Shown: positions 17,890 to 27,932 of the stretch, piece after piece
Numbering within the stretch: the stretch's first letter is position 1
Layout: the number at the start of each line of letters is the position of its first letter
NCBI GenBank assembly: GCA_021824575.1
Contig: JAKAKJ010000020.1
Location: 1-32,164, forward strand
Origin: Chloroflexota bacterium
Lineage (GTDB): Bacteria; Chloroflexota; Anaerolineae; Anaerolineales; Villigracilaceae
Length of the DNA stretch: 32,164 nt
Reading direction: 5' to 3'
Notes under the pieces: model-generated
Seen by the model: only the letters and a program-made list of their open reading frames with translations
What the model was told of the DNA's origin: nothing
Databases searched by the model: none
Made by a program: the position numbers and the translations under genes

Positions 17890-18576
17890 CTACCCGATAT
17901 AAACCTGCACACGTTCGCCGTGTTCGCCTTCGTCCACATTCACGATCAAAGGCTCCTCGGATGAAATTCCTTTTGACAACAATTCAATGATTTCATCCAC
18001 GTTGGTTTGTCGCAAGCCGTCAATGTTGTGACCAAAATTGCGCAGGAACCAGCTTGCCAATCCGAGTGGAAGCGGGAATCCAAGTGTGATGTTACGCGGC
18101 CATTCATTCTCCGCTTGTTCCACGTTTACGTACAACCACCTGGAAGTCGCGGAGCTAGCAAACAATGCGATCAACGCAATCCCCAGCAAGAGCGGAAGCC
18201 ATGCAAAATAAAACCAGAATCCGTAATTCGATGTGGTGACCAGCGCGTACATCCAATAAGCAGAAAGCACTGTGATGAACACGCCGATCCACAATGGAAT
18301 TTGCCAAAGACGACGGGCTTTGTGCGCGACTTCTTTGAATTCGGGCGCGGCCGGCTTCGTTGAATCTGAGTCCGCTTCGGGCCTGCCCTGAGCCGCGTCG
18401 AAGGATCCGGATGAAGAAGCGGGCGCGCCTGTCCCGAGTTTGGGCGAGGGAGCTTCGATGATTTCCATCTCGACGGACGATTCACCCAGCGCCTTCATCA
18501 GCTTCATGGCTTCGTCCGCGCTGATCTTTCCATCCTCGACCATTTTGAGAATCTGCTGCCGTTCTTCGGAAGACAT
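17890..18576 (-). CDS. SHOCT-like domain membrane protein
   Basis: A 228-residue protein with the module ILKMVEDGKISADEAMKLM at residues 9-27, a Ser/Pro/Asp-rich linker, two membrane helices (about residues 94-115 and 122-140) and a soluble C-terminal domain related to 17500-17880. Its ATG overlaps the previous stop by one base (TAATG). A 24-bp dispersed repeat (18381-18404) has been inserted in frame in the linker and is translated as SFDAAQGRPE. Function unknown; it probably anchors the operon's proteins in the membrane. Confidence 0.72.
   Translation of the reverse strand: MSSEERQQILKMVEDGKISADEAMKLMKALGESSVEMEIIEAPSPKLGTGAPASSSGSFDAAQGRPEADSDSTKPAAPEFKEVAHKARRLWQIPLWIGVFITVLSAYWMYALVTTSNYGFWFYFAWLPLLLGIALIALFASSATSRWLYVNVEQAENEWPRNITLGFPLPLGLASWFLRNFGHNIDGLRQTNVDEIIELLSKGISSEEPLIVNVDEGEHGERVQVYIG
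18381..18404 (-). repeat. Dispersed 24-bp repeat, copy 2 (in-frame in the linker)
   Basis: The minus strand reads ccttcgacgcggctcaggg and matches 4212-4235 at 20 of 24 positions. It lies in a disordered linker, where an insertion would be tolerated. Confidence 0.6.
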
Positions 18577-19709
18577 TACTCACCTCCTTCAAGCGCCGAG
18601 AGCAATTTTTCCGCTTCTTCCGATGTAATCTTTTTTTCCTGCAACATCTTTAGAATCGTTATTCGTTCTTCATCGGAGACAGGTTGACGCGCCTCGGATG
18701 TTTCGGAAACATTCACTCCAAAATTCGGATGCCGAAATGACAGGGGCCGCGGCGGAACAGGTGGAACGGGGCCAGGATGACCCGCCTGGTGCGACATAAT
18801 GCGTGTCATTTTTTGTTCTGCGCGGCGGGCGGCCCGCTCTGCTTGTTGCTGTGCGCGGCGCGTAGCTGCGTTCACCCGCTGCGAGATTCGTTCGCTGAAT
18901 TCGCGCCCAAAATCATCCCAGTCAAACATGGCCCCCGCTAAATTGCCAAACTCATCGGCGGTTTCACCGGCCGTATCTTGTCCGCTGACACGCAAGTCGC
19001 CGCCTGCACTCAATGAAATTTTGGCCGAACCATTGCCAAGTTTCACAACGCGTGAAGTCGAATCTTCTTCAGGAACATCCGGCAAGTCAACTTCAATTTC
19101 GTCACCCGTTAAATTCAATGTGGCATCTGCATCAGGCGGCAAAACAGCCAGGATATCATCGCCCGCATTGATTGTGTATTCGTGGTCCACTTTTGGATCA
19201 ATATAAACAACCGCATCCGCGCCAACAATGGCTTTAAGATTTCCGCCGATCCCGCGCACCACCAGATCAGATGCAACCAACTCCACTGTCACACTGCCGG
19301 AAACATCGCGGACAGATGCGTCCGCATTGATCTTTTTGACCCGCACGTCTCCGATTGCGCCGCGCAGGTTGAAATCCGCGTTGACCTTTTCGATGGCGAT
19401 GGTGCCAACATCACGAACGGAAAGATCGCCCTGGATTTCCTTTAGCTCGACTTGCCCGGTCACACCGCGCAGGGCCATATCGCCGGTGACGCTTTGAACT
19501 TCGAGCGAGCCGCCGCGCGGCATGCGAAGTGTCAAATCGTCATTGCAGGAAAAGTAAACCGTCTGATCCTCCTGACGAATGCGAACATTTTCATCGTCGG
19601 CTTTGACCAACAATTCCTGCGCGTCCCAGCCGACAACGCTGAAATCTCCGTTGACCGCTTCGATTACAATCCTAGGCGCCAAACCCACCGAAAGAGTTTG
19701 ATTGGTCAC
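18576..19709 (-). CDS. DUF4097 beta-solenoid protein with C-terminal SHOCT-like module
   Basis: A 377-residue protein. Residues 1-245 have repeating short strands of the pattern VRDVGTIAIEKVNADFNLRG, as expected of a DUF4097 (putative adhesin) beta-helix. A linker (about 260-310) is rich in Arg/Gln/Ala (RRAQQQAERAARRAEQK), probably helical. The last 35 residues carry the module ITILKMLQEKKITSEEAEKLL. The start overlaps the DUF2089 stop by four bases (ATGA). Relatives in Firmicutes (LiaX/YvlB types) respond to cell-envelope damage; that role here is inferred. Confidence 0.78.
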   Translation of the reverse strand: MTNQTLSVGLAPRIVIEAVNGDFSVVGWDAQELLVKADDENVRIRQEDQTVYFSCNDDLTLRMPRGGSLEVQSVTGDMALRGVTGQVELKEIQGDLSVRDVGTIAIEKVNADFNLRGAIGDVRVKKINADASVRDVSGSVTVELVASDLVVRGIGGNLKAIVGADAVVYIDPKVDHEYTINAGDDILAVLPPDADATLNLTGDEIEVDLPDVPEEDSTSRVVKLGNGSAKISLSAGGDLRVSGQDTAGETADEFGNLAGAMFDWDDFGREFSERISQRVNAATRRAQQQAERAARRAEQKMTRIMSHQAGHPGPVPPVPPRPLSFRHPNFGVNVSETSEARQPVSDEERITILKMLQEKKITSEEAEKLLSALEGGE

Positions 19710-20095
19710 AGTTCCTCCTCGCCGCGCAGAACTCGCATGGCATCTTCAGTTGAAATCCTGCCTTTATCCAAATCTTCGAGAATGGAGCGCCGCTTCTCGT
19801 CACTGATCTCAGGCGCTTCATCCTTACCGGGTTCGTATCCCATCGCGCGGATCACCTCAAGCAGGCGATTGCGAATCGTTGGATAGGATCCCCAGTTTCC
19901 CTCCTGCTCCATACGATTGATCTTCCCTTCGCACCGGACAAAACTTTTGATAAATTCGATTTGTTCCGCGGTTAGAGCCGGGAACGCGCTGTTTTCAAAA
20001 CGACCTTCGATTGAAGTATCGCAGGTATCGCAATGATAACGCGTGACGTGGAGATCATCCCCACACACAGGACACTTATTGAGGGAAGGTTTCAT
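19706..20095 (-). CDS. DUF2089 family protein
   Basis: A 129-residue protein, first gene of the operon. An N-terminal zinc ribbon (CPVC at 8-11, CDTC at 22-25) is followed by a helix-turn-helix-like middle (LTAEQIEFIKSFVRCEGKIN … YPTIRNRLLEVI). The C-terminus is the shared module RRSILEDLDKGRISTEDAMRVL. The first two parts suggest a nucleic-acid-binding regulator, so it may control its own operon; the family is functionally uncharacterised. Confidence 0.8.
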   Translation of the reverse strand: MKPSLNKCPVCGDDLHVTRYHCDTCDTSIEGRFENSAFPALTAEQIEFIKSFVRCEGKINRMEQEGNWGSYPTIRNRLLEVIRAMGYEPGKDEAPEISDEKRRSILEDLDKGRISTEDAMRVLRGEEEL

Positions 20096-21159: not shown

Positions 21160-21180
21160 CCATCGAAATCATAATCAAAA

Positions 21181-21216
21181 AAAATCAGGCTTCGTTTCCG
21201 GAGCCTGATTTTTTAT
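21181..21216. terminator. Bidirectional terminator: lexA / ubiquitin-like operon
   Basis: A 14-bp stem with one G-T pair (21181-21194 / 21199-21212, loop of four) has an A-run on the left and T-run on the right, so it works from both sides. It ends lexA and the seven-gene minus-strand operon. Confidence 0.9.
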
Positions 21217-22383
21217 TTATTTGATCTTTACATGGCTTTTTTGAGGCGCAGGGCCAGCTGATGAACTTGGCTGTCCGGCAAATTTTATCCGGCTCTTTTT
21301 GCGGCTGCCCATCGAGCGGTGTCCCACCAGATTGGCGAGCATAGGCAGCCCCAGCAGGATCAATAGAACAAGCAAGATGCCGCCGAACAAGGGCCATGAC
21401 TGGCTGGGCACTTCGGGCAAGACGCCGCCAGGGTTATACTGCGATTGCGCCGCGACGGCAGCGCCGCCACTGGTCAAACTCACAGACAGACTGCGATTGA
21501 CGCCATCTCGCAAAGCCGAAGGCGACGTGTAAGTCAAAGCATATTCGTTTTGCAGAGCGGTCCCATATTGTTGGAATATGGATGCAAGCTGCGATGGATC
21601 CGGCTCGTAGGTGTAGATACCGCCAGCGCGTTGAGCGAGGGACTTGAGGCCGGCCTCATCAATTCCCTGAAGACTCTTGGGGTCTTGAGGATTGCCCAGA
21701 CCAATCGTTGAGATGGTCAGTCCGCTTGGGCCGATCGCGTTGATAACAGAATCCGCATTATTCTTGCTGCGATTATCCATGCCATCGGTCAGAAGAAGAA
21801 TCGCCTTGCGGCCATTGATACTGGACAGGTCCTGTTCGGCCTGCGTCAGCGCATCAAACATGGCGGTATCACTGCCCGGCTGCAAAGAGTCAATAGCCTG
21901 GATCAATATCTGGTGGTCGGAAGTGACCGGTTGGTTTACCTCGATATGAGTATCGAAAGCGATCAACCCGGCCTGATCGCCAGGGCGCATCTGATCCACA
22001 TAGGCCTTGGCCGCCGCCTTGGCCAAGGTCAGCTTATTGGCGGTCGCCATGCTTCCCGATATGTCTATTACCAGCATGGTTGTCAATTGACCAGGCCCTT
22101 TGGTGTTTGTCTGGCCTCCCGTGCCATTCGCAACAGCGGTCTTCATAACCTGGCCGTTTTCGGAAATTTGGATGGCGCTTGGATCAACGCCAACTGGCTG
22201 ACCATTCGCATCCGTCACGGAAACGTAAACGGTCACTTGCGGAAACTTGGAAGTATCCACCTGTGTAATGCGGATCTGCGGCGAAGCAGGCGTCGGCGTT
22301 TGGGCAAAGGCTCCGGGCGCAGACCAAAACGTCAGCACGAGAAGCAGGCCCAAAGTCAGGATGAAGCGGGAAATTTTTCGCAT
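21217..22383 (-). CDS. von Willebrand factor A domain protein, membrane-anchored (ubiquitin-like operon)
   Basis: A 388-residue exported protein and last gene of the operon. A signal peptide covers residues 1-28 (…SAPGAFAQ). A vWA domain follows with a complete metal-ion-dependent adhesion site: DISGSM (107-112), a later Thr, and LLTDGMDNRS. A single membrane helix lies near residues 333-354, followed by a basic cytoplasmic tail containing SRIKFAG and ending in HVKIK. The last resembles the tails of other proteins of this operon. It starts two bases after the FHA gene stop. vWA domains hold protein partners through Mg2+; its role in the conjugation system is unknown. Confidence 0.88.
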   Translation of the reverse strand: MRKISRFILTLGLLLVLTFWSAPGAFAQTPTPASPQIRITQVDTSKFPQVTVYVSVTDANGQPVGVDPSAIQISENGQVMKTAVANGTGGQTNTKGPGQLTTMLVIDISGSMATANKLTLAKAAAKAYVDQMRPGDQAGLIAFDTHIEVNQPVTSDHQILIQAIDSLQPGSDTAMFDALTQAEQDLSSINGRKAILLLTDGMDNRSKNNADSVINAIGPSGLTISTIGLGNPQDPKSLQGIDEAGLKSLAQRAGGIYTYEPDPSQLASIFQQYGTALQNEYALTYTSPSALRDGVNRSLSVSLTSGGAAVAAQSQYNPGGVLPEVPSQSWPLFGGILLVLLILLGLPMLANLVGHRSMGSRKKSRIKFAGQPSSSAGPAPQKSHVKIK

Positions 22384-22385
22384 GG

Positions 22386-23237
22386 TTACCTCTTATCGTG
22401 ATAGACCATTTCAGTATTGCCCATGCGAATTCTTTGTCCATTGGTGAGCCGGGCAAGTTCGATCTTTTTGTTGTTGATAAACGTTCCAGACATGCTCATG
22501 TCCTTGACGGTGAACTGTTTGCCATCTCCGGTCAGCATGGCATGCTGCGGAGCAATGTCCGGATCGGGCAGGACGATCTCTGATTTCAGCGCCGAACTGC
22601 CGATGGCAATCGCCGGTCCGCCCGCATGCATGAACTTATCGAGGATGAACTCGGTGCCTTTAAGTTTGCCTGAAGTGACTTCAAGCCAGGCGCGCGATAG
22701 CGCTACCACAATCAGCGATATGAACAGCCCCACAGCGGCTCCAAGCACTACCATACCGATTGCCTTGCCAACAGCCAGGTCCAATCGAATCCGGGCCAGT
22801 TCGAGCAGGGCGCCGCCCAGCGCGCCGCCGATGAAACCGCCAAGGGTCGGCTTCCATATCTCGCTGCGGCCGACAAATCCTTGCGCCAGCCCGATCATCG
22901 CACCGAAAACGCCCCAGCCCAAGGCGCGGCCAAGCACACCAGCGCCGACCGCTTGAAAGAGATATTCACCTAACACCAGGCCAAAACCTCCAACCGCGCC
23001 AACTAAACCGCCAACCACTCCAGCTTTGAGTGTTTGCACGGGATTGCGGGTTAATATTCCCTCTGTGATGCCGATGAACAAGCCAATCAGCACCCCAACC
23101 AAGGCGCCAACGATCATTACGTTCGCGTAAAAGGTACTTGTGAACGATAAACCAAGCAAATCGCTTACCTGTGATGCAAACAGACCTCCGATCGCTCCAA
23201 GTACAGCATAGAAATACATCCTCATTCGTCTGCTCAT
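22386..23237 (-). CDS. Multi-pass membrane protein with C-terminal FHA domain (ubiquitin-like operon)
   Basis: A 283-residue protein. Residues 1-180 hold several Gly-rich hydrophobic helices (glycine-zipper look, GGLVGAVGGFGLVLG), and residues 197-283 form a forkhead-associated domain (His232 in APQHAML, SGTFINN at 250-256). The usual Arg after the first Gly of FHA motifs is Ser (IGSS at 212-215), so phosphothreonine binding may be weak or altered. The ATG overlaps the JAMM gene stop by four bases (ATGA). FHA domains read phosphorylated partners, so this may recruit a modified protein to the membrane. Confidence 0.85.
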   Translation of the reverse strand: MSRRMRMYFYAVLGAIGGLFASQVSDLLGLSFTSTFYANVMIVGALVGVLIGLFIGITEGILTRNPVQTLKAGVVGGLVGAVGGFGLVLGEYLFQAVGAGVLGRALGWGVFGAMIGLAQGFVGRSEIWKPTLGGFIGGALGGALLELARIRLDLAVGKAIGMVVLGAAVGLFISLIVVALSRAWLEVTSGKLKGTEFILDKFMHAGGPAIAIGSSALKSEIVLPDPDIAPQHAMLTGDGKQFTVKDMSMSGTFINNKKIELARLTNGQRIRMGNTEMVYHDKR

Positions 23238-23899
23238 TTGGAAGCCTCTCCTTTCTCTTCATCAAATTGATACAGGTTGGTCCAATAGACCATGCTGCGG
23301 CCATAATTGCCATCGAGTTCATAAAAGCCGAAATAACGCGTAGGATCGAAAATCCCGCTCTTCTGGCGGATAAAAAAACCGCCGGTCGCTGATACAGGTT
23401 CCACCACGAGAGCGACCTGCCATGGTTCCGGGAAGAAGTTGCCGTGCAGCCATGTATCGTAATGAGAAAGAAAAACACCCATGCTGGGGTGGGTGTGATA
23501 CCAACCCACGATTTTCTCGCCTTTGTAATTGGTGTCTATCTGGTCATGGATATCAACCAGACTTTCCTGCGTGAACGTCAAATAAACGCTTCCCTGGCGT
23601 GTGTAACGCGCTGGCAGCGCATGCTCAACCACTAAGAACTGCTGGCGATTTTCGTCCGCACACCACTGCCCAATCAAAATGCCGCCGACTTCATTCCGCA
23701 TGTCGCTTACCGAATGGACACATATACGGCTATAAGCCTGCTGGGTCATGAACACAGAAACGATCGGATGCAAATTGTTCTCATCATAGGGCGAGTTCCA
23801 ACGGCTGGCCCTTTTTATGGGAAGCGGCGTGGTGATCGGCGGATTCATATCAGCTGTCAGAAAACGAATTCGAGGTAGCGAAGCCATAGATAAATGCAT
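23234..23899 (-). CDS. JAMM/MPN-family metalloprotease, deubiquitinase-like (ubiquitin-like operon)
   Basis: A 221-residue MPN+ protein. JAMM enzymes use zinc to cleave peptide or isopeptide bonds after a ubiquitin-like protein. Every catalytic residue is visible: Glu70 (NEVGGILIG), His135 and His137 with Ser145 and Asp148 in HTHPSMGVFLSHYD (H-x-H-x7-S-x2-D). The layout (VGWYHTHPSMGVFLS) is close to that of prokaryotic Prok-JAB and eukaryotic proteasome-lid JAMMs. The start at 23899 has GAGGG seven bases upstream. It could release the ubiquitin-like protein from targets or cut the Ubl-E2 fusion. No signal peptide, so it is cytosolic. Confidence 0.9.
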   Translation of the reverse strand: MHLSMASLPRIRFLTADMNPPITTPLPIKRASRWNSPYDENNLHPIVSVFMTQQAYSRICVHSVSDMRNEVGGILIGQWCADENRQQFLVVEHALPARYTRQGSVYLTFTQESLVDIHDQIDTNYKGEKIVGWYHTHPSMGVFLSHYDTWLHGNFFPEPWQVALVVEPVSATGGFFIRQKSGIFDPTRYFGFYELDGNYGRSMVYWTNLYQFDEEKGEASK

Positions 23900-23958
23900 A
23901 ACCCGGCCCTCAATCCCGCCTTGCTGTTGGCAAAGCGGGATGAGGTGAGGATCGAAAA

Positions 23959-24225
23959 TTATCCTGCGGTTACATCGGCGGTCATCATCAACCGATCGTT
24001 TTGCGGAATGCCGGCCTGTGAGAGCGTTTCTTCTTCCTTCAACTCGCGGCCGAGCGCCTTGCTGTCCAAGCGATAGGACATGGGGCGTCCATCCGGGCCC
24101 GTGACAGGCAGTTCCAACGAAGTAGTTAACTCCGGGATCAATTCTTTCACCGGCACATCATTTGGAACCTCGGCATTTCGGGTGCCTCCCGACGGGAGAA
24201 CGATAGTGACAGGAACGTCTGACAT
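23959..24225 (-). CDS. Free ubiquitin-like modifier (ubiquitin-like operon)
   Basis: An 88-residue beta-grasp protein of the YukD/EsaB-like type. It opens with a beta-hairpin (PVTIVLPSGGTRNAEV), has a helix (VKELIPELTTSLEL) and a closing strand (DRLMMTADV), and ends ...TAG. It is identical to residues 1-88 of the E2 fusion protein at 68 of 88 positions, and ends exactly where that domain ends. The C-terminus is a single Gly preceded by Ala, not the GG of ubiquitin, and has no extra residues to be trimmed. AGGAG precedes the start. It is the presumed molecule activated by the E1, carried by the E2 and removed by the JAMM enzyme. Confidence 0.82.
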   Translation of the reverse strand: MSDVPVTIVLPSGGTRNAEVPNDVPVKELIPELTTSLELPVTGPDGRPMSYRLDSKALGRELKEEETLSQAGIPQNDRLMMTADVTAG

Positions 24226-24270
24226 GGTTAATCTCCTTTCTGAATTTGGGCGAACTTACGTTTACTTGCA

Positions 24271-24297
24271 AACCGGTTTAGATGCAGTCAACTGCAT
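24271..24297. promoter_or_regulatory. Two palindromes in the gap before the free modifier
   Basis: AACCGGTT (24271-24278) and ATGCAGT-CA-ACTGCAT (24282-24297) lie in the 88-base gap between the E2 and free Ubl genes, the longest gap in the operon. They could mark an RNA-processing site or an internal regulator site that sets the level of the modifier. A minus-strand TTGACT lies within, but no good -10 follows. Confidence 0.4.
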
Positions 24298-24313
24298 ACG
24301 ACGCGGAAGATGG

Positions 24314-25267
24314 CTATTTAATTCGGATTTTTGGCTTTGACTTGACGGCGGCTTTCGAAGGCGTGACCGCTTTAGCCGCTGTTTGTTTCGTAGATGTCGG
24401 GGCCGACAACTTGATGCTCGGCTTCTTTGTCTCCGATTTATGATCCTGTTTGCCCGCGCCAAGCTTGACGCGCTCTGGGCGCATCAATTCACGCTTGTCA
24501 ACAGGAAATGCATCAGGATGTGTTTTGCGATATTCGCGCGACCAGCGGGCCGCTTCCGGGTCCCAGGGGAACGGAGGCTTGGTCGGATCATCATGGAAAT
24601 TCTTGTATTGAAGCATCTCACCCAGCATGATCACGAGGCGATCCAGTGAGCGGCTTGCCGTCCACCAGGCGGCATCAATACACACCGTGCCGTTAAGGTG
24701 ATTGATATTTGGGTGCCAGATTGGCGTCAGCCATTTCATGCCTGGCCAGCGCTGAGGATATTGGTTGTGGAGATAAATCTCGACTTGATGATGTTCGCTG
24801 AACTGTGGATTGCCCTGACGATCAACCGTGGCAATGCTCTTGCATTTGAACGTTACGATATAACGTTCGGGCGGCAGGTTTGGACGCGGCGACTGGGCCA
24901 CGAAGGAAATCAAGTCCGTGCGAGCGGCCATTTCCTGCATCAGTTCATAATCGGCGCGCAAGCGTCTCATGCGCGGACTCTCGGAGACCACATTCGAGCC
25001 TGCGCCGGCAGTGATATCCGCTGTCATCATCAAACGGTCATTTTCGGGAATACCGGCCGCGGCCAGGGTTTCATTCTCTTTCAACTCGCGGCCCAGGGCT
25101 TTGCTGTCCAAGCGATACGTCATCGGCCGTCCATCCGGGCCCGTGACAGGCAACTCCAAAAGTGATGTAAACTCCGACAACAAATCATGCACGGGCACAT
25201 CATCGGGGACTTCGGCAGCACGCGCTCCTCCGCTTGGCAAAACGATCGTTATGTTCAAATCAGGCAT
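24314..25267 (-). CDS. Ubiquitin-like domain fused to E2 conjugating enzyme (ubiquitin-like operon)
   Basis: A 317-residue protein. Residues 1-88 are a ubiquitin-like domain 77% identical to the separate modifier. Residues ~98-245 are an E2 (UBC) fold: HPN at 185-187, catalytic Cys196 in NGTVCIDAAWW, and the closing PWDPEAARWSREY. Residues 265-317 are a Lys/Ser/Thr-rich tail ending in PKIRIK. The start is the ATG at 25267, with GGAGG eight bases upstream; the longer open frame to 25387 overlaps the RING gene and is unlikely. E2s carry the modifier as a Cys thioester and hand it to targets. Cis-fusion may keep a Ubl near the active site. Confidence 0.93.
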   Translation of the reverse strand: MPDLNITIVLPSGGARAAEVPDDVPVHDLLSEFTSLLELPVTGPDGRPMTYRLDSKALGRELKENETLAAAGIPENDRLMMTADITAGAGSNVVSESPRMRRLRADYELMQEMAARTDLISFVAQSPRPNLPPERYIVTFKCKSIATVDRQGNPQFSEHHQVEIYLHNQYPQRWPGMKWLTPIWHPNINHLNGTVCIDAAWWTASRSLDRLVIMLGEMLQYKNFHDDPTKPPFPWDPEAARWSREYRKTHPDAFPVDKRELMRPERVKLGAGKQDHKSETKKPSIKLSAPTSTKQTAAKAVTPSKAAVKSKPKIRIK

Positions 25268-25283
25268 GGGGGTTCCCTCCAGA

Positions 25284-26165
25284 TCAAGTGTTAAGATGCG
25301 GCACCTGGCAGGCGCCGGTGACATCCCAGCAGTCTTTGTGGTGCAGCGTATGGCAAACTTCACACTCCACCACACCGCGCGGGTCATCTCGCTTTACTTC
25401 TTCGAAACAGTATGGGCAGCGATGTTCTTCATACACAGCCAGTTGAATCGCAGGCTTCCGATGCAAAGGATTCCAATTCTTTGACCGGGATGATTTAGCC
25501 GAACCGGACGCAGCCGACTTGGAAATCAACGGGCGCTGCATTTTGCGGACTTTCGGCCTTGGATTCCAACGCGCAATGCGAACTTTTGGAGATGGCGGAT
25601 TCGAAGCAACGCTTGAACGGGACGAATGCGCTGACTGACGTACTCGCCGCGATGGAGTCGAGGAAGACTCTGCCGCACGCGGTGTTGATGGTTTCCAAAC
25701 TCGAAGCGCAATCCATGATATATCCATGGTAATCGCCAAATAAGCCAAGGCAGGCCAGTTCATCTGGCCATGCTCGATCTGCAAAGGCAGTTTCAAAGGA
25801 ATATGCCATTGACCAAGCCAATCCACTTGAACAAGCCTCAGCGGCAGAGGACCGATCCCGGCCTTCGCGTTCGTGAAGTAACCCAACACCAACAGTCCGA
25901 CAACAGCCAACGCGGCAGAGACGAGCGCCTGTATCGCTCCATGACGCTGGTTCAACACCATGCGGGTCGCGAGGCCAATCACCAACCCGATGCTCACATC
26001 CGCAAAAAGATTAAACATCACCAGCGGAAGGCTGTTCGCCTGGCGAAGAAGGATCACCAGACCCAACGCCGACGCAATGACCAGAAGGAACAGTAGGGCC
26101 AACTTGCGGGCCAAATGCCATTGTTCTGGTGAGTTGGAATTGAAACTCATTGTTCGCGTGGCCAT
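25284..26165 (-). CDS. Membrane-anchored prokaryotic RING-finger protein, E3 ligase candidate (ubiquitin-like operon)
   Basis: A 293-residue protein with up to four membrane helices (about residues 20-41, 47-67, 77-97 and 136-157), a basic, Ser-rich linker (KVRIARWNPRPKVRK), and a C-terminal treble-clef RING. Ligands: Cys250/Cys253, Cys268/Cys271, His275 or 276, Cys279 followed by Trp, Cys286 and His290. This spacing fits the Prok-RING_1-like family. RINGs bind E2s and position them near targets, so this is the likely E3, placed at the membrane. The ATG at 26165 is taken; a TTG at 26177 is also possible. It follows the E1 stop by 14 bases. Confidence 0.87.
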   Translation of the reverse strand: MATRTMSFNSNSPEQWHLARKLALLFLLVIASALGLVILLRQANSLPLVMFNLFADVSIGLVIGLATRMVLNQRHGAIQALVSAALAVVGLLVLGYFTNAKAGIGPLPLRLVQVDWLGQWHIPLKLPLQIEHGQMNWPALAYLAITMDISWIALRVWKPSTPRAAESSSTPSRRVRQSAHSSRSSVASNPPSPKVRIARWNPRPKVRKMQRPLISKSAASGSAKSSRSKNWNPLHRKPAIQLAVYEEHRCPYCFEEVKRDDPRGVVECEVCHTLHHKDCWDVTGACQVPHLNT

Positions 26166-26179
26166 TCTGTTATCCAAAT

Positions 26180-27853
26180 TTATCCGCCGCGCAATTTGAC
26201 GCGTCCATGAGCGGCGCTAATGACAGATGGACTCTTAACTCTCACCATATCTTTGGAATCCGGGATTTGCAGTTCTTCCTTCTTGATCCGAACGCGGTTC
26301 TGCGATGAAGGGCTCACTGTGATGCGCGTTTGTTCAAAGTGGCGGAAGTGCAAGGCTTCGGGCAGGTCGCCGGTCAACTCATAGAAGCGATATTGCACAC
26401 CGTTATGAGCGCGCACAATGTGCAAAGGCGGCACGCCAACGCTGGACAGCGTACGATGCAGGAAATTTTCCTCGCCAGAGACAATATGGGTCAGAGTCGA
26501 TTCGCGCAGCACGCCGCAAGTCGGGCAATGCCCGGCTTCAAAAGAGACTTCACTCAATGGCCTCAGAACATGCTCCACGGTGTGGCAGTTTGGGCATTCA
26601 AGCGAAGTAATCAGCTCTTGATCAAGCTCGATCATGGCATCCGGCCCGAGGTCCGCGCGCGCGATGCGCAACAGATCCGCAAGCGTCGTGCGTTCTGCGC
26701 GCGCCGGCAATTCGGTGATTTCGCCATACGTCCAGTGACTTTCGCAATCATCACGCGGCGAATACGCCGTCGTGTGCATTTCGTTGACCAAGCCGTTGTA
26801 GTGGACAACTTTGCCTGCCTCCACCGGCATGTTATTGATCAATTTAAGAGCTTCCTGCGACTGCATTCCGCCGATGATCGAAGCAATCGTCGGTGTAGTC
26901 GGAACTTTGCCAAGCAGAATATTTTGTCGCGCAAGCAAAGGACAGGAATAACGCATGGACAGATCGCGCAGGGCCTGTTCCGTCAAAGTGCATTCATAAC
27001 AAGCGCCCTGCCCCGGCACGAAGACGCGCACCAATCCGAGCAATTCCTGAATCGCGCCGTCCACCCACGGCTTGTTTACCCAATAGCAAAAACGATTGAT
27101 GGCCAGGCGGGCTTCGCGATTATCAAGGCAGCCAATAACCACATCCATGCGGCGGAAAATCCCCAAACCAAGCTGGGTGGTTACATCGCCATTCAAGTAT
27201 TGAACGTGAATATCGGGGTTGATGGATTTGGCCCGCGCCGCGGTAATTTCTGCTTTGCTGCGATCATTGTCGGTTTCGCGGAACAATACTGACCGGCTCA
27301 AATTAGCCGCTTCTACCTTATCGAAATCCACAATGAACAAATTACCAACGCCCATCAATGCCAGGTTTTTGATCACTTCATTGCCAAGCGCGCCTGCGCC
27401 AACCACCATCACTTTGGCATTCTGGACCTTCTCGCGTTCCCACCACGAGATGAACTCGAAAGTTCCGAGGCGATCCTTTTTCAGATTTGGAATGTGGATT
27501 GGCTTATCGGGAGCGATTGGAACACGCAGCGGCCCAGTCGGCGGTTCGTTCGTTGCCGGACGTGAAGCGGATTGTGCGGCCGCACCGGCCATTTCCTTCG
27601 CCTGGGTCATATTCGACTCGTCCACTGCTCTGGCGAACCATCCCACGTGCGGGCGCGACTCGATCAGGTTGTTCTTTTCGAGAGTCTTGAGCGCCTCCCG
27701 CAAAGTCGAACGGCTGATCTTGAGCTGGTTCATCAGCTCGCGTTCGGGCGGAAGCTGGGCCCCCGGAGCCAAACTTCCATCCAAAATGGAGGCGGCCAGC
27801 TTTCCAGCAGCCATCTCGGAAAGTGTCTTGTGGGCAATCGGCTGAATTTTCAT
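26180..27853 (-). CDS. GntR DNA-binding domain fused to ubiquitin-activating E1-like enzyme (ubiquitin-like operon)
   Basis: A 557-residue protein. Residues 5-80 are a GntR winged helix (LPPERELMNQLKISRSTLRE). Residues ~130-350 are an E1/ThiF fold: nucleotide loop GAGALGN (152-158), Asp176/Asp178, Asn184 and Arg187, Asp244. A stretch ACYECTL (284-290) and the candidate catalytic Cys304 (RYSCPLL) follow the arrangement I recall for NEDD8/SUMO E1 catalytic subunits. CPNC (420-423) and CPTC (443-446) form a zinc ribbon; the C-terminal part ends in KLRGG. The E1 would adenylate the modifier and load it by thioester. The fused DNA-binding domain has a matching operator in its own promoter. A GntR-E1 fusion is unusual. 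Confidence 0.9.
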   Translation of the reverse strand: MKIQPIAHKTLSEMAAGKLAASILDGSLAPGAQLPPERELMNQLKISRSTLREALKTLEKNNLIESRPHVGWFARAVDESNMTQAKEMAGAAAQSASRPATNEPPTGPLRVPIAPDKPIHIPNLKKDRLGTFEFISWWEREKVQNAKVMVVGAGALGNEVIKNLALMGVGNLFIVDFDKVEAANLSRSVLFRETDNDRSKAEITAARAKSINPDIHVQYLNGDVTTQLGLGIFRRMDVVIGCLDNREARLAINRFCYWVNKPWVDGAIQELLGLVRVFVPGQGACYECTLTEQALRDLSMRYSCPLLARQNILLGKVPTTPTIASIIGGMQSQEALKLINNMPVEAGKVVHYNGLVNEMHTTAYSPRDDCESHWTYGEITELPARAERTTLADLLRIARADLGPDAMIELDQELITSLECPNCHTVEHVLRPLSEVSFEAGHCPTCGVLRESTLTHIVSGEENFLHRTLSSVGVPPLHIVRAHNGVQYRFYELTGDLPEALHFRHFEQTRITVSPSSQNRVRIKKEELQIPDSKDMVRVKSPSVISAAHGRVKLRGG

Positions 27854-27878: not shown

Positions 27879-27932
27879 TGGTAGTCAGACCAAGATACAT
27901 AAAAGTATACAGATTTTAATAGCTGGAGTCAA
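27879..27932 (-). promoter_or_regulatory. Promoter and GntR/FadR-like operator of the ubiquitin-like operon
   Basis: On the minus strand TTGACT (27932-27927) and TATACT (27909-27904) are 17 bases apart. About eleven bases downstream lies TTGGTCTGACTACCA (27893-27879), an imperfect inverted repeat whose TGGTC-T-GAC core matches the FadR-type half-sites bound by GntR proteins. It overlaps the expected transcription start, so binding by the GntR domain of the E1 protein would repress its own operon. The start codon itself has only a weak ribosome-binding site. Confidence 0.7.

Follow-up and report, generated by a model that had tools for sequence, protein, structure and literature searches.

Described ubiquitin-like systems and the Villigracilaceae locus

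Prokaryotic ubiquitin-like protein (Ubl) systems with an E1 activating enzyme, an E2, a RING protein and a JAB peptidase were reportedly described by Burroughs et al. in 2011, and the CBASS protein Cap2 is an E1-E2 fusion encoded beside a cGAS-like enzyme. Here we analyse a locus from a Chloroflexota bacterium (Anaerolineales, Villigracilaceae; assembly GCA_021824575.1), found in the stretch of 32,164 nucleotides at positions 1 to 32,164 of contig JAKAKJ010000020.1 (the window). Seven open reading frames (ORFs) on the minus strand, running from 27853 to 21217, encode in order a GntR-E1 fusion, a membrane RING protein, a Ubl-E2 fusion, a free Ubl, a JAMM metallopeptidase, a membrane FHA protein and a vWA protein. 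E1 and E2 are separate genes, and no cGAS-like enzyme is among the seven. We read this operon, with a probability of about 0.72, as a reversible Ubl conjugation pathway that would act at the membrane and in which GntR-E1 would serve as its own repressor.

Systems of E1, E2, RING and JAB with a Ubl-E2 fusion are already published, and for this locus, first described in a previous sequence-only reading, novelty as a kind is not upheld. Kaur et al. (2020; PMC7159879), who cite Burroughs et al. (2011), report a ‘tri-ligase’ system in which JAB, E1 and RING are encoded separately and Ubl is fused to E2. They place such Ubl systems among conflict systems and, for related ones, propose a connection with degradation. 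The window agrees with tri-ligase systems in the separate JAB, E1 and RING genes, in the Ubl-E2 protein and in the Prok-RING_1 family, which already exists in Pfam, and it resembles the version of Kaur et al. in the vWA protein nearby. It carries a ThiF-type E1 with a conserved Cys and a UFD-like C-terminal region, an E2 of UBC fold with HPN and Cys, a Prok-RING_1 finger and an intact JAMM motif. However, in that version the Ubl bears EAD1 and is accompanied by FtsH, a caspase-like effector and a core of vWA and MoxR, whereas the window has GntR on E1, a separate free Ubl, an FHA membrane protein, and a vWA protein with a signal-like start and a membrane segment. Pfam gave no match to an AAA ATPase (FtsH, MoxR) or a caspase-like effector among the seven genes, and EAD1 did not appear in their Pfam results, no EAD1-specific model having been searched.

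Other described systems share parts of this gene set. Like the window, the ubiquitin operon of Caldiarchaeum subterraneum has an E2, a RING protein and CsRpn11 (6fjv), the nearest solved relative of the window JAMM among the chains found by sequence, and an E1 with a C-terminal ubiquitin-like domain is reported for archaeal E1s of that set (PMC5654768, PMC6043591). In contrast, CsUb carries a GG end with a tail of nine residues where the window Ubl is YukD-like with a TAG end, and the window differs further in the membrane segments of its RING protein and in GntR, FHA and vWA. BilABCD also places Ubl, E1, E2 and JAMM in one operon, but there (PMC11354881) two Ubl domains are found in BilA, two adenylation halves in BilD and a CEHH motif in BilB; the window has one Ubl domain per protein, one ThiF (single YukD and ThiF stretches by Pfam), an HPN-type E2, and added RING and membrane proteins. 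Bub operons are likewise bacterial and ubiquitination-like, and many adjoin a dedicated transcriptional regulator, but the regulators reported for them (CapW, CapH+CapP, CapK+CapS; PMC13373217) are separate genes, whereas in the window a repressor-like domain lies within E1. ThiS and MoaD have a GG end and no E2, while the window Ubl ends in TAG and adjoins an E2, and none of the type VII YukD/EccD partners (WXG100, FtsK-like ATPase) was found by Pfam among the seven genes. What appears to be new here is the GntR-E1 fusion with its predicted operator, the TAG terminus rule and the seven-gene layout, which did not turn up in the literature searches made, one of them aimed at the fusion, an earlier account in Burroughs 2011, Gong 2025 or Ye 2026 not being excluded.

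Seven genes are kept in a fixed order among relatives

The seven ORFs are confirmed at the coordinates and on the strand first proposed, and Pfam profiles at their curated cut-offs recognize every one of the seven proteins (GntR and ThiF, Prok-RING_1, YukD and UQ_con, YukD, JAB, FHA, VWA). The full E1-E2-RING-JAMM-Ubl gene set, the layout unlike BilABCD and the membrane partners that the sequence-only reading had put forward are supported by Pfam, motif counts, hydropathy, alignments and the E1 and E2 models. The features are as follows.

26180..27853, minus strand: GntR-E1 fusion, 557 amino acids (aa), with GntR winged helix at aa 12-73, ThiF at aa 134-370 and a UFD-like C-terminus to about aa 496 (Pfam, alignments, model)
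25284..26165, minus strand: membrane RING protein, about three hydrophobic segments and a C-terminal Prok-RING_1 finger (Pfam, hydropathy, alignment)
24314..25267, minus strand: Ubl-E2 fusion, YukD-like Ubl to TAG at aa 88, short linker, UBC with HPN 185-187 and Cys196
23959..24225, minus strand: free YukD-like Ubl, 88 aa, C-terminus exactly ...DVTAG
23234..23899, minus strand: JAMM metallopeptidase, E70, GWYHTHP 132-138, S145 and D148; start codon uncertain
22386..23237, minus strand: predicted multi-pass membrane protein with a C-terminal degenerate FHA (Pfam, hydropathy, alignment)
21217..22383, minus strand: vWA protein, signal-like N terminus, DxSxS vWA, C-terminal hydrophobic segment
27874..27892, minus strand: putative FadR-type operator TGGTCTGACTACCATACCA (pattern searches)
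27904..27932, minus strand: sigma-70-type promoter TTGACT-17-TATACT (promoter scan; spacing conserved in relatives)
21179..21214, no strand assigned: 16-bp stem with T runs past vWA, common to the convergent lexA (scored for the plus strand only)

The likely ATG of the RING gene is at 26165, in preference to the TTG of the ORF at 26177, and that of Ubl-E2, from the DNA, is at 25267, where the ORF starts at 25387. With respect to the proposal of one promoter and one terminator, a promoter-like site lies upstream of E1; for the terminator there is the stem past vWA, with its plus-strand score, and by inspection of the DNA its T run is present on the minus strand too.

Relatives from named genomes were found via E2, and the best 80 of 299 were kept, all with titles of Chloroflexota or its subgroups. 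The order of the genes is well conserved: 66 of the 80 named loci have all seven in the same order, and one more (L111) does so except for an early FHA ORF start. The 13 remaining loci comprise 11 truncated by contig ends, L110, which is masked over its Ubl, and L143, which lacks FHA and vWA and lies on a long contig. All 80 relatives carry E2, by which they were recruited, and RING adjoins it in 78; the relatives are not confined to sulfur-carrier settings. The operon is also present in the cultured Anaerolineae Pelolinea submarina MO-CFX1 and Leptolinea tardivitalis YMTK-2.

At the level of the class, 32 of 298 genomes match the Ubl-E2 query and 28 of these carry an E2 operon. Among the class loci, ten have all seven gene kinds and L043 has five; L044 is rearranged, sixteen belong to a sister type (f37), L062 encodes an E2-Ubl protein and the remaining three match only through the YukD domain. 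Loci L034-L043 of this set partly duplicate records L064-L143 of the named set (L034 and L064, for example), and the class-set and named-set counts of Ubl ends, motifs and operator are therefore not independent. The E2 profile matches 13 of 400 genomes sampled from the phylum, including three from outside the class: L191 (G307) has the seven genes in order with an E2 that lacks the fused Ubl, and the more distant L192 and L193 lie on contigs too short to judge membership.

In the window, as in several relatives, the cassette is flanked by rplL and lexA, and its gene content is nearly fixed across loci. In three of four relatives without the operon (L184, L185, L186; the L187 stretch lacks rplL), rplL lies directly beside lexA, so that the cassette appears to come and go as a unit. 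Its patchy presence in the class would suit anti-phage defence of Bil, Bub or CBASS type, in which phage proteins would be tagged, as would the place that Kaur et al. give tri-ligase Ubl systems and the match of E1 and JAMM to the E1-E2 and JAB models of PADLOC (best E values 4e-18 and 1.6e-9). However, PADLOC gave no match for the other five proteins (RING, Ubl-E2, Ubl, FHA, vWA), and no swapping effector was seen. Moreover, Pfam matches among 120 flank proteins (hand-picked from 146 of the 214 listed, with no background set) were mainly to housekeeping families, LexA (16) and ribosomal L10 (14) being commonest, and defence models were rare among the matches listed (25 of 49 families; mad3 2, methyltransferase models 1, mad8 1). 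An anti-phage island was rejected based on these flanks and on the adjoining rplL and lexA, and we consider a defence role decidedly unlikely.

Conserved residues of E1, E2, RING and JAMM

Of the residues that the sequence-only reading gave as intact, Cys304 of E1, HPN and Cys196 of E2, the RING ligands and the JAMM set are conserved across relatives. Cys304 of E1, within RYSC...GKVPTTPT, is invariant in 25 of 25 aligned E1s and conserved in at least 95% of 69 sequences in a wider alignment; RxSC is found in all 68 complete named E1s, two of which carry GKIPTTP. From this conservation we infer a catalytic role for Cys304. The C-terminal region of E1 carries CxxC...CxxC. The E1 model (mean pLDDT 78.3), compared with a list preselected by Foldseek, aligns with MoeB (Z 30.2) and UBA5 (Z 25.8) and matches ThiF as well. 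Its alignment with the larger E1s (UBA1, UBA2, UBA6, UBA7) reaches residue 495/496, and thus the C-terminal region is probably a UFD, to judge from the model. In the proposed pathway, which would act on the inner side of the cell membrane, E1 would adenylate the C-terminal Gly of the 88-residue YukD-like Ubl, accept the Ubl on Cys304 and pass it via the UFD-like region to Cys196 of E2.

ThiF and MoeB are the nearest matches of E1 both in NCBIfam and in fold, as would be expected of a sulfur-carrier or cofactor pathway (ThiS/MoaD-like) with added domains. Yet E1 reaches no NCBIfam cut-off among the matches listed (25 of 59 families), a second and stronger ThiF match is found elsewhere in the host genome, RING and JAMM accompany E2 throughout the named loci, contig ends aside, and the Ubl is of YukD type. 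The sulfur-carrier reading was rejected on these grounds, and we regard it as highly improbable.

Every one of 26 aligned E2 sequences keeps HPN and Cys196, and all 80 named E2s have HPN..C[ILV] (67 with the narrower C[IL]); residues 6, 8 and 13 past Cys196 are W, A and D. The E2 model matches E2 structures, including eukaryotic ones, with a Foldseek probability of 1.00, and the E2 profile likewise matches eukaryotic E2s, so that E1 and E2 models both show the expected folds. The RING protein scores 31.2 bits with Prok-RING_1 (cut-off 29.1) and its ligands are kept in 78 of 78 copies, while the JAMM motif is intact in 81 of 81. In the proposed pathway, the membrane RING protein would deliver charged E2 to substrates in the membrane or envelope, and JAMM would strip the tag and trim Ubl precursors bearing tails. 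A second JAMM protein of about 350-400 aa lies between Ubl and the usual JAMM in the deep-branching loci L038-L041, L123, L124, L131, L133, L134 and L138.

The Ubl termini are constrained at TAG

Of the 75 complete named copies of the free Ubl, 73 terminate exactly in TAG (the other two add A or GR), as do 25 of 28 copies of the overlapping class set (the other three add RQL, QGRRA and RS), such that the five that are not exact extend one to five residues past TAG. The fused Ubl has D-[IV]-T-A-G in 80 of 80 copies, the next residue being A, G, S or K, ahead of a linker that varies. Since a constrained TAG end precedes an unconstrained linker, this is the pattern expected of a terminus that is processed or activated. 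CsRpn11 is reported to cleave linear Ub fusions as well as a Ub precursor (PMC5654768, PMC6043591), and by analogy it is plausible that JAMM frees the fused Ubl from Ubl-E2; a cut past TAG may release a second Ubl in this way. Lys56 of the Ubl, retained in 75 of 75 copies, is a candidate chain-forming site.

In a tree of the Ubl domains, built on only 88 columns, 70 fused copies fall on one side; the other side holds 76 free copies together with ten fused ones, of which nine come from deep-branching loci and one from L111. Ubls of the same operon are slightly more alike than pairs across loci (+0.02, in 58 of 75). Concerted evolution of the free and fused Ubl was rejected, as the tree mostly separates them; the split indicates that the two are mostly old paralogues.

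A predicted operator precedes the GntR-E1 genes

The palindrome TGGTCTGACTACCATACCA lies at 27892-27874, upstream of E1 and 11 bp past the promoter TTGACT-17-TATACT (27932-27904), and resembles the consensus of the E. coli FadR site. The aligned sites of the relatives read TGGTCTGACCAccAtACCA. Ten of 11 loci with GntR-E1 have a core of TGGTCWGAC no more than 110 bp upstream of their E1 start, compared to none of 14 E1 loci without GntR. When N is allowed at the centre and 150 bp on both sides of the ORF start are covered, 54 of the 68 complete E1 loci in named genomes contain the core. The W form occurs in 56 of 70 loci (the 68 named loci, the window and L191), compared to a mean of 0.11 and a maximum of 1 in 100 shuffles. 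Upstream of these, a promoter score of at least 9 of 12 is reached in 47 of 56, compared to 7 of 56 when shuffled, and in 39 of the 47 the gap from the -10 element to the site is 8-11 bp. The longer operator pattern occurs at one place in the 3.6-Mb host genome (in two overlapping readings).

The locus therefore has the traits of a GntR/FadR regulator, a winged helix-turn-helix and a FadR-type palindromic putative operator. Because the palindrome precedes GntR-E1 genes and is absent before the 14 E1 genes without GntR, E1 probably represses its own operon, its GntR domain binding the palindrome near the transcription start; autorepression of the cassette is the simplest reading, and the conserved predicted operator supports the earlier description of the system as regulated. 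GntR regulators are common, and the 14 of 70 loci without the exact core would be compatible with another GntR-family repressor at the operator, the GntR domain of E1 being a relic or a protein-binding module. This we consider improbable, as the site tracks the fusion and stands at one place in the genome, and R48, R52, E53, A54 and L55 of the helix-turn-helix are at least 95% conserved.

A more tentative extension of autorepression, against which we would lay somewhat more than even odds, is that E1 is a moonlighting enzyme-repressor and that two modifiers are made, the free Ubl and a Ubl that JAMM would cut past TAG from its Ubl-E2 precursor. The adenylation domains would dimerise as in ThiF and MoeB, placing two GntR heads on the operator, and Ubl loading or E2 engagement would alter the spacing of the heads and free the promoter, such that transcription would report the pool of free Ubl. 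If the GntR-E1 reading is true, a single protein would couple Ubl activation to transcription.

Membrane partners and the fate of tagged proteins

Simple hydropathy, the basis of all topology given here, predicts three hydrophobic segments in the window copies of both the RING and FHA proteins (2-5 among the relatives of each) and, for the vWA protein, a signal-like start and one hydrophobic segment. A role of the FHA domain as a phospho-reader is not supported by its binding residues. In alignment with GarA, Ser214 replaces the conserved Arg of GR and Pro230 lies within the SR pair of SRxH, in at least 95% of 72 sequences. With the Arg and Ser of the canonical site absent, a phosphothreonine reader is unlikely and was rejected. 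The degenerate FHA and an outward-facing vWA would instead be parts of a membrane scaffold or sensor.

The membrane RING protein and the membrane partners would also suit a quality-control route in which the Ubl directs membrane proteins to degradation by FtsH or a different membrane protease, as in endoplasmic reticulum-associated degradation, and Kaur et al. suggest such a link for related systems. However, PF00227, the proteasome family, has no match in the host genome and is absent from 27 of the 28 operon-bearing genomes (the remaining one has a single match of 24.1 bits, cut-off 22.4), and Pfam identified no protease in the cassette other than JAMM. A proteasomal fate of tagged proteins is thus not supported, and we view degradation as an unlikely purpose of the tag.

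Several points weigh against a membrane conjugation pathway repressed by its own E1. With respect to conjugation, the Ubl ends in a single Gly rather than GG, and YukD of B. subtilis has been reported as not conjugated (PMC1779556); the Ubl-E2 fusion is not universal, since L044, L191 and the f37 type have an E2 without the fused Ubl; and the loop of E1 with Cys304 is modelled at low confidence (pLDDT below 50 at residues 302-315). With respect to the operator, the reversed control pattern also had two matches in the genome scan, and the 14 loci without the exact core include Leptolinea tardivitalis and Leptolinea sp. HRD-7 (L100, L107). The simple nature of the hydropathy estimate, the differing segment counts among relatives and the ill-suited FHA residues count in the same direction. 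The pathway favoured here remains of interest as a complete bacterial E1-E2-RING-JAMM-Ubl module in fixed order, also at hand in cultured Anaerolineae and with a predicted terminal residue for mass spectrometry, which makes it directly testable whether bacterial RING systems conjugate YukD-like Ubls.

Variant loci and neighbouring genes

In the rearranged class locus L044 (G278), E1 lacks GntR, and the Ubl, with a TAGRQL end, overlaps an E2 that has a gene of its own. The locus also encodes two JAMM proteins of large size (814 and 541 aa) and two vWA proteins, the gene for one of which is truncated where the stretch ends. The f37 type, similar but not counted as a member, reads E1-Ubl-E2-JAMM-JAMM, with RING in 11 of the 16 loci, several being truncated by contig ends. 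In eight of the 16 (L047, L048, L049, L052, L054, L055, L057, L058) a homologue of dynamin-like GTPases of about 880 aa lies upstream (Pfam Dynamin_N was tested in L055; the L047 copy is a 56-aa piece at a contig end), which hints at a further membrane link. A CAP-domain protein is additionally found in L052-L055.

Some matches were rejected as members. L061 and L063, the two of the three YukD-only matches that were read (the third is from G107), have YukD-FHA proteins with no E2 match adjoining; these proteins (L061:8486-9547 and L063:8853-9914) are 353 aa long and combine a YukD-like domain with an FHA-like stretch in which GR and SRNH motifs occur; by eye the C-terminal part reads like a TIR domain. 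L062 (L062:3-746) encodes an E2 with a C-terminal Ubl and a MAG end, the reverse of the Ubl-E2 order in the window. Within the window itself, positions 18576-20095 encode a zinc-ribbon regulator with DUF2089 and, after it, a DUF4097 protein whose end is SHOCT-like; the SHOCT-like match of the DUF2089 protein itself is below the cut-off, and DUF2089 is found near lexA in several relatives.

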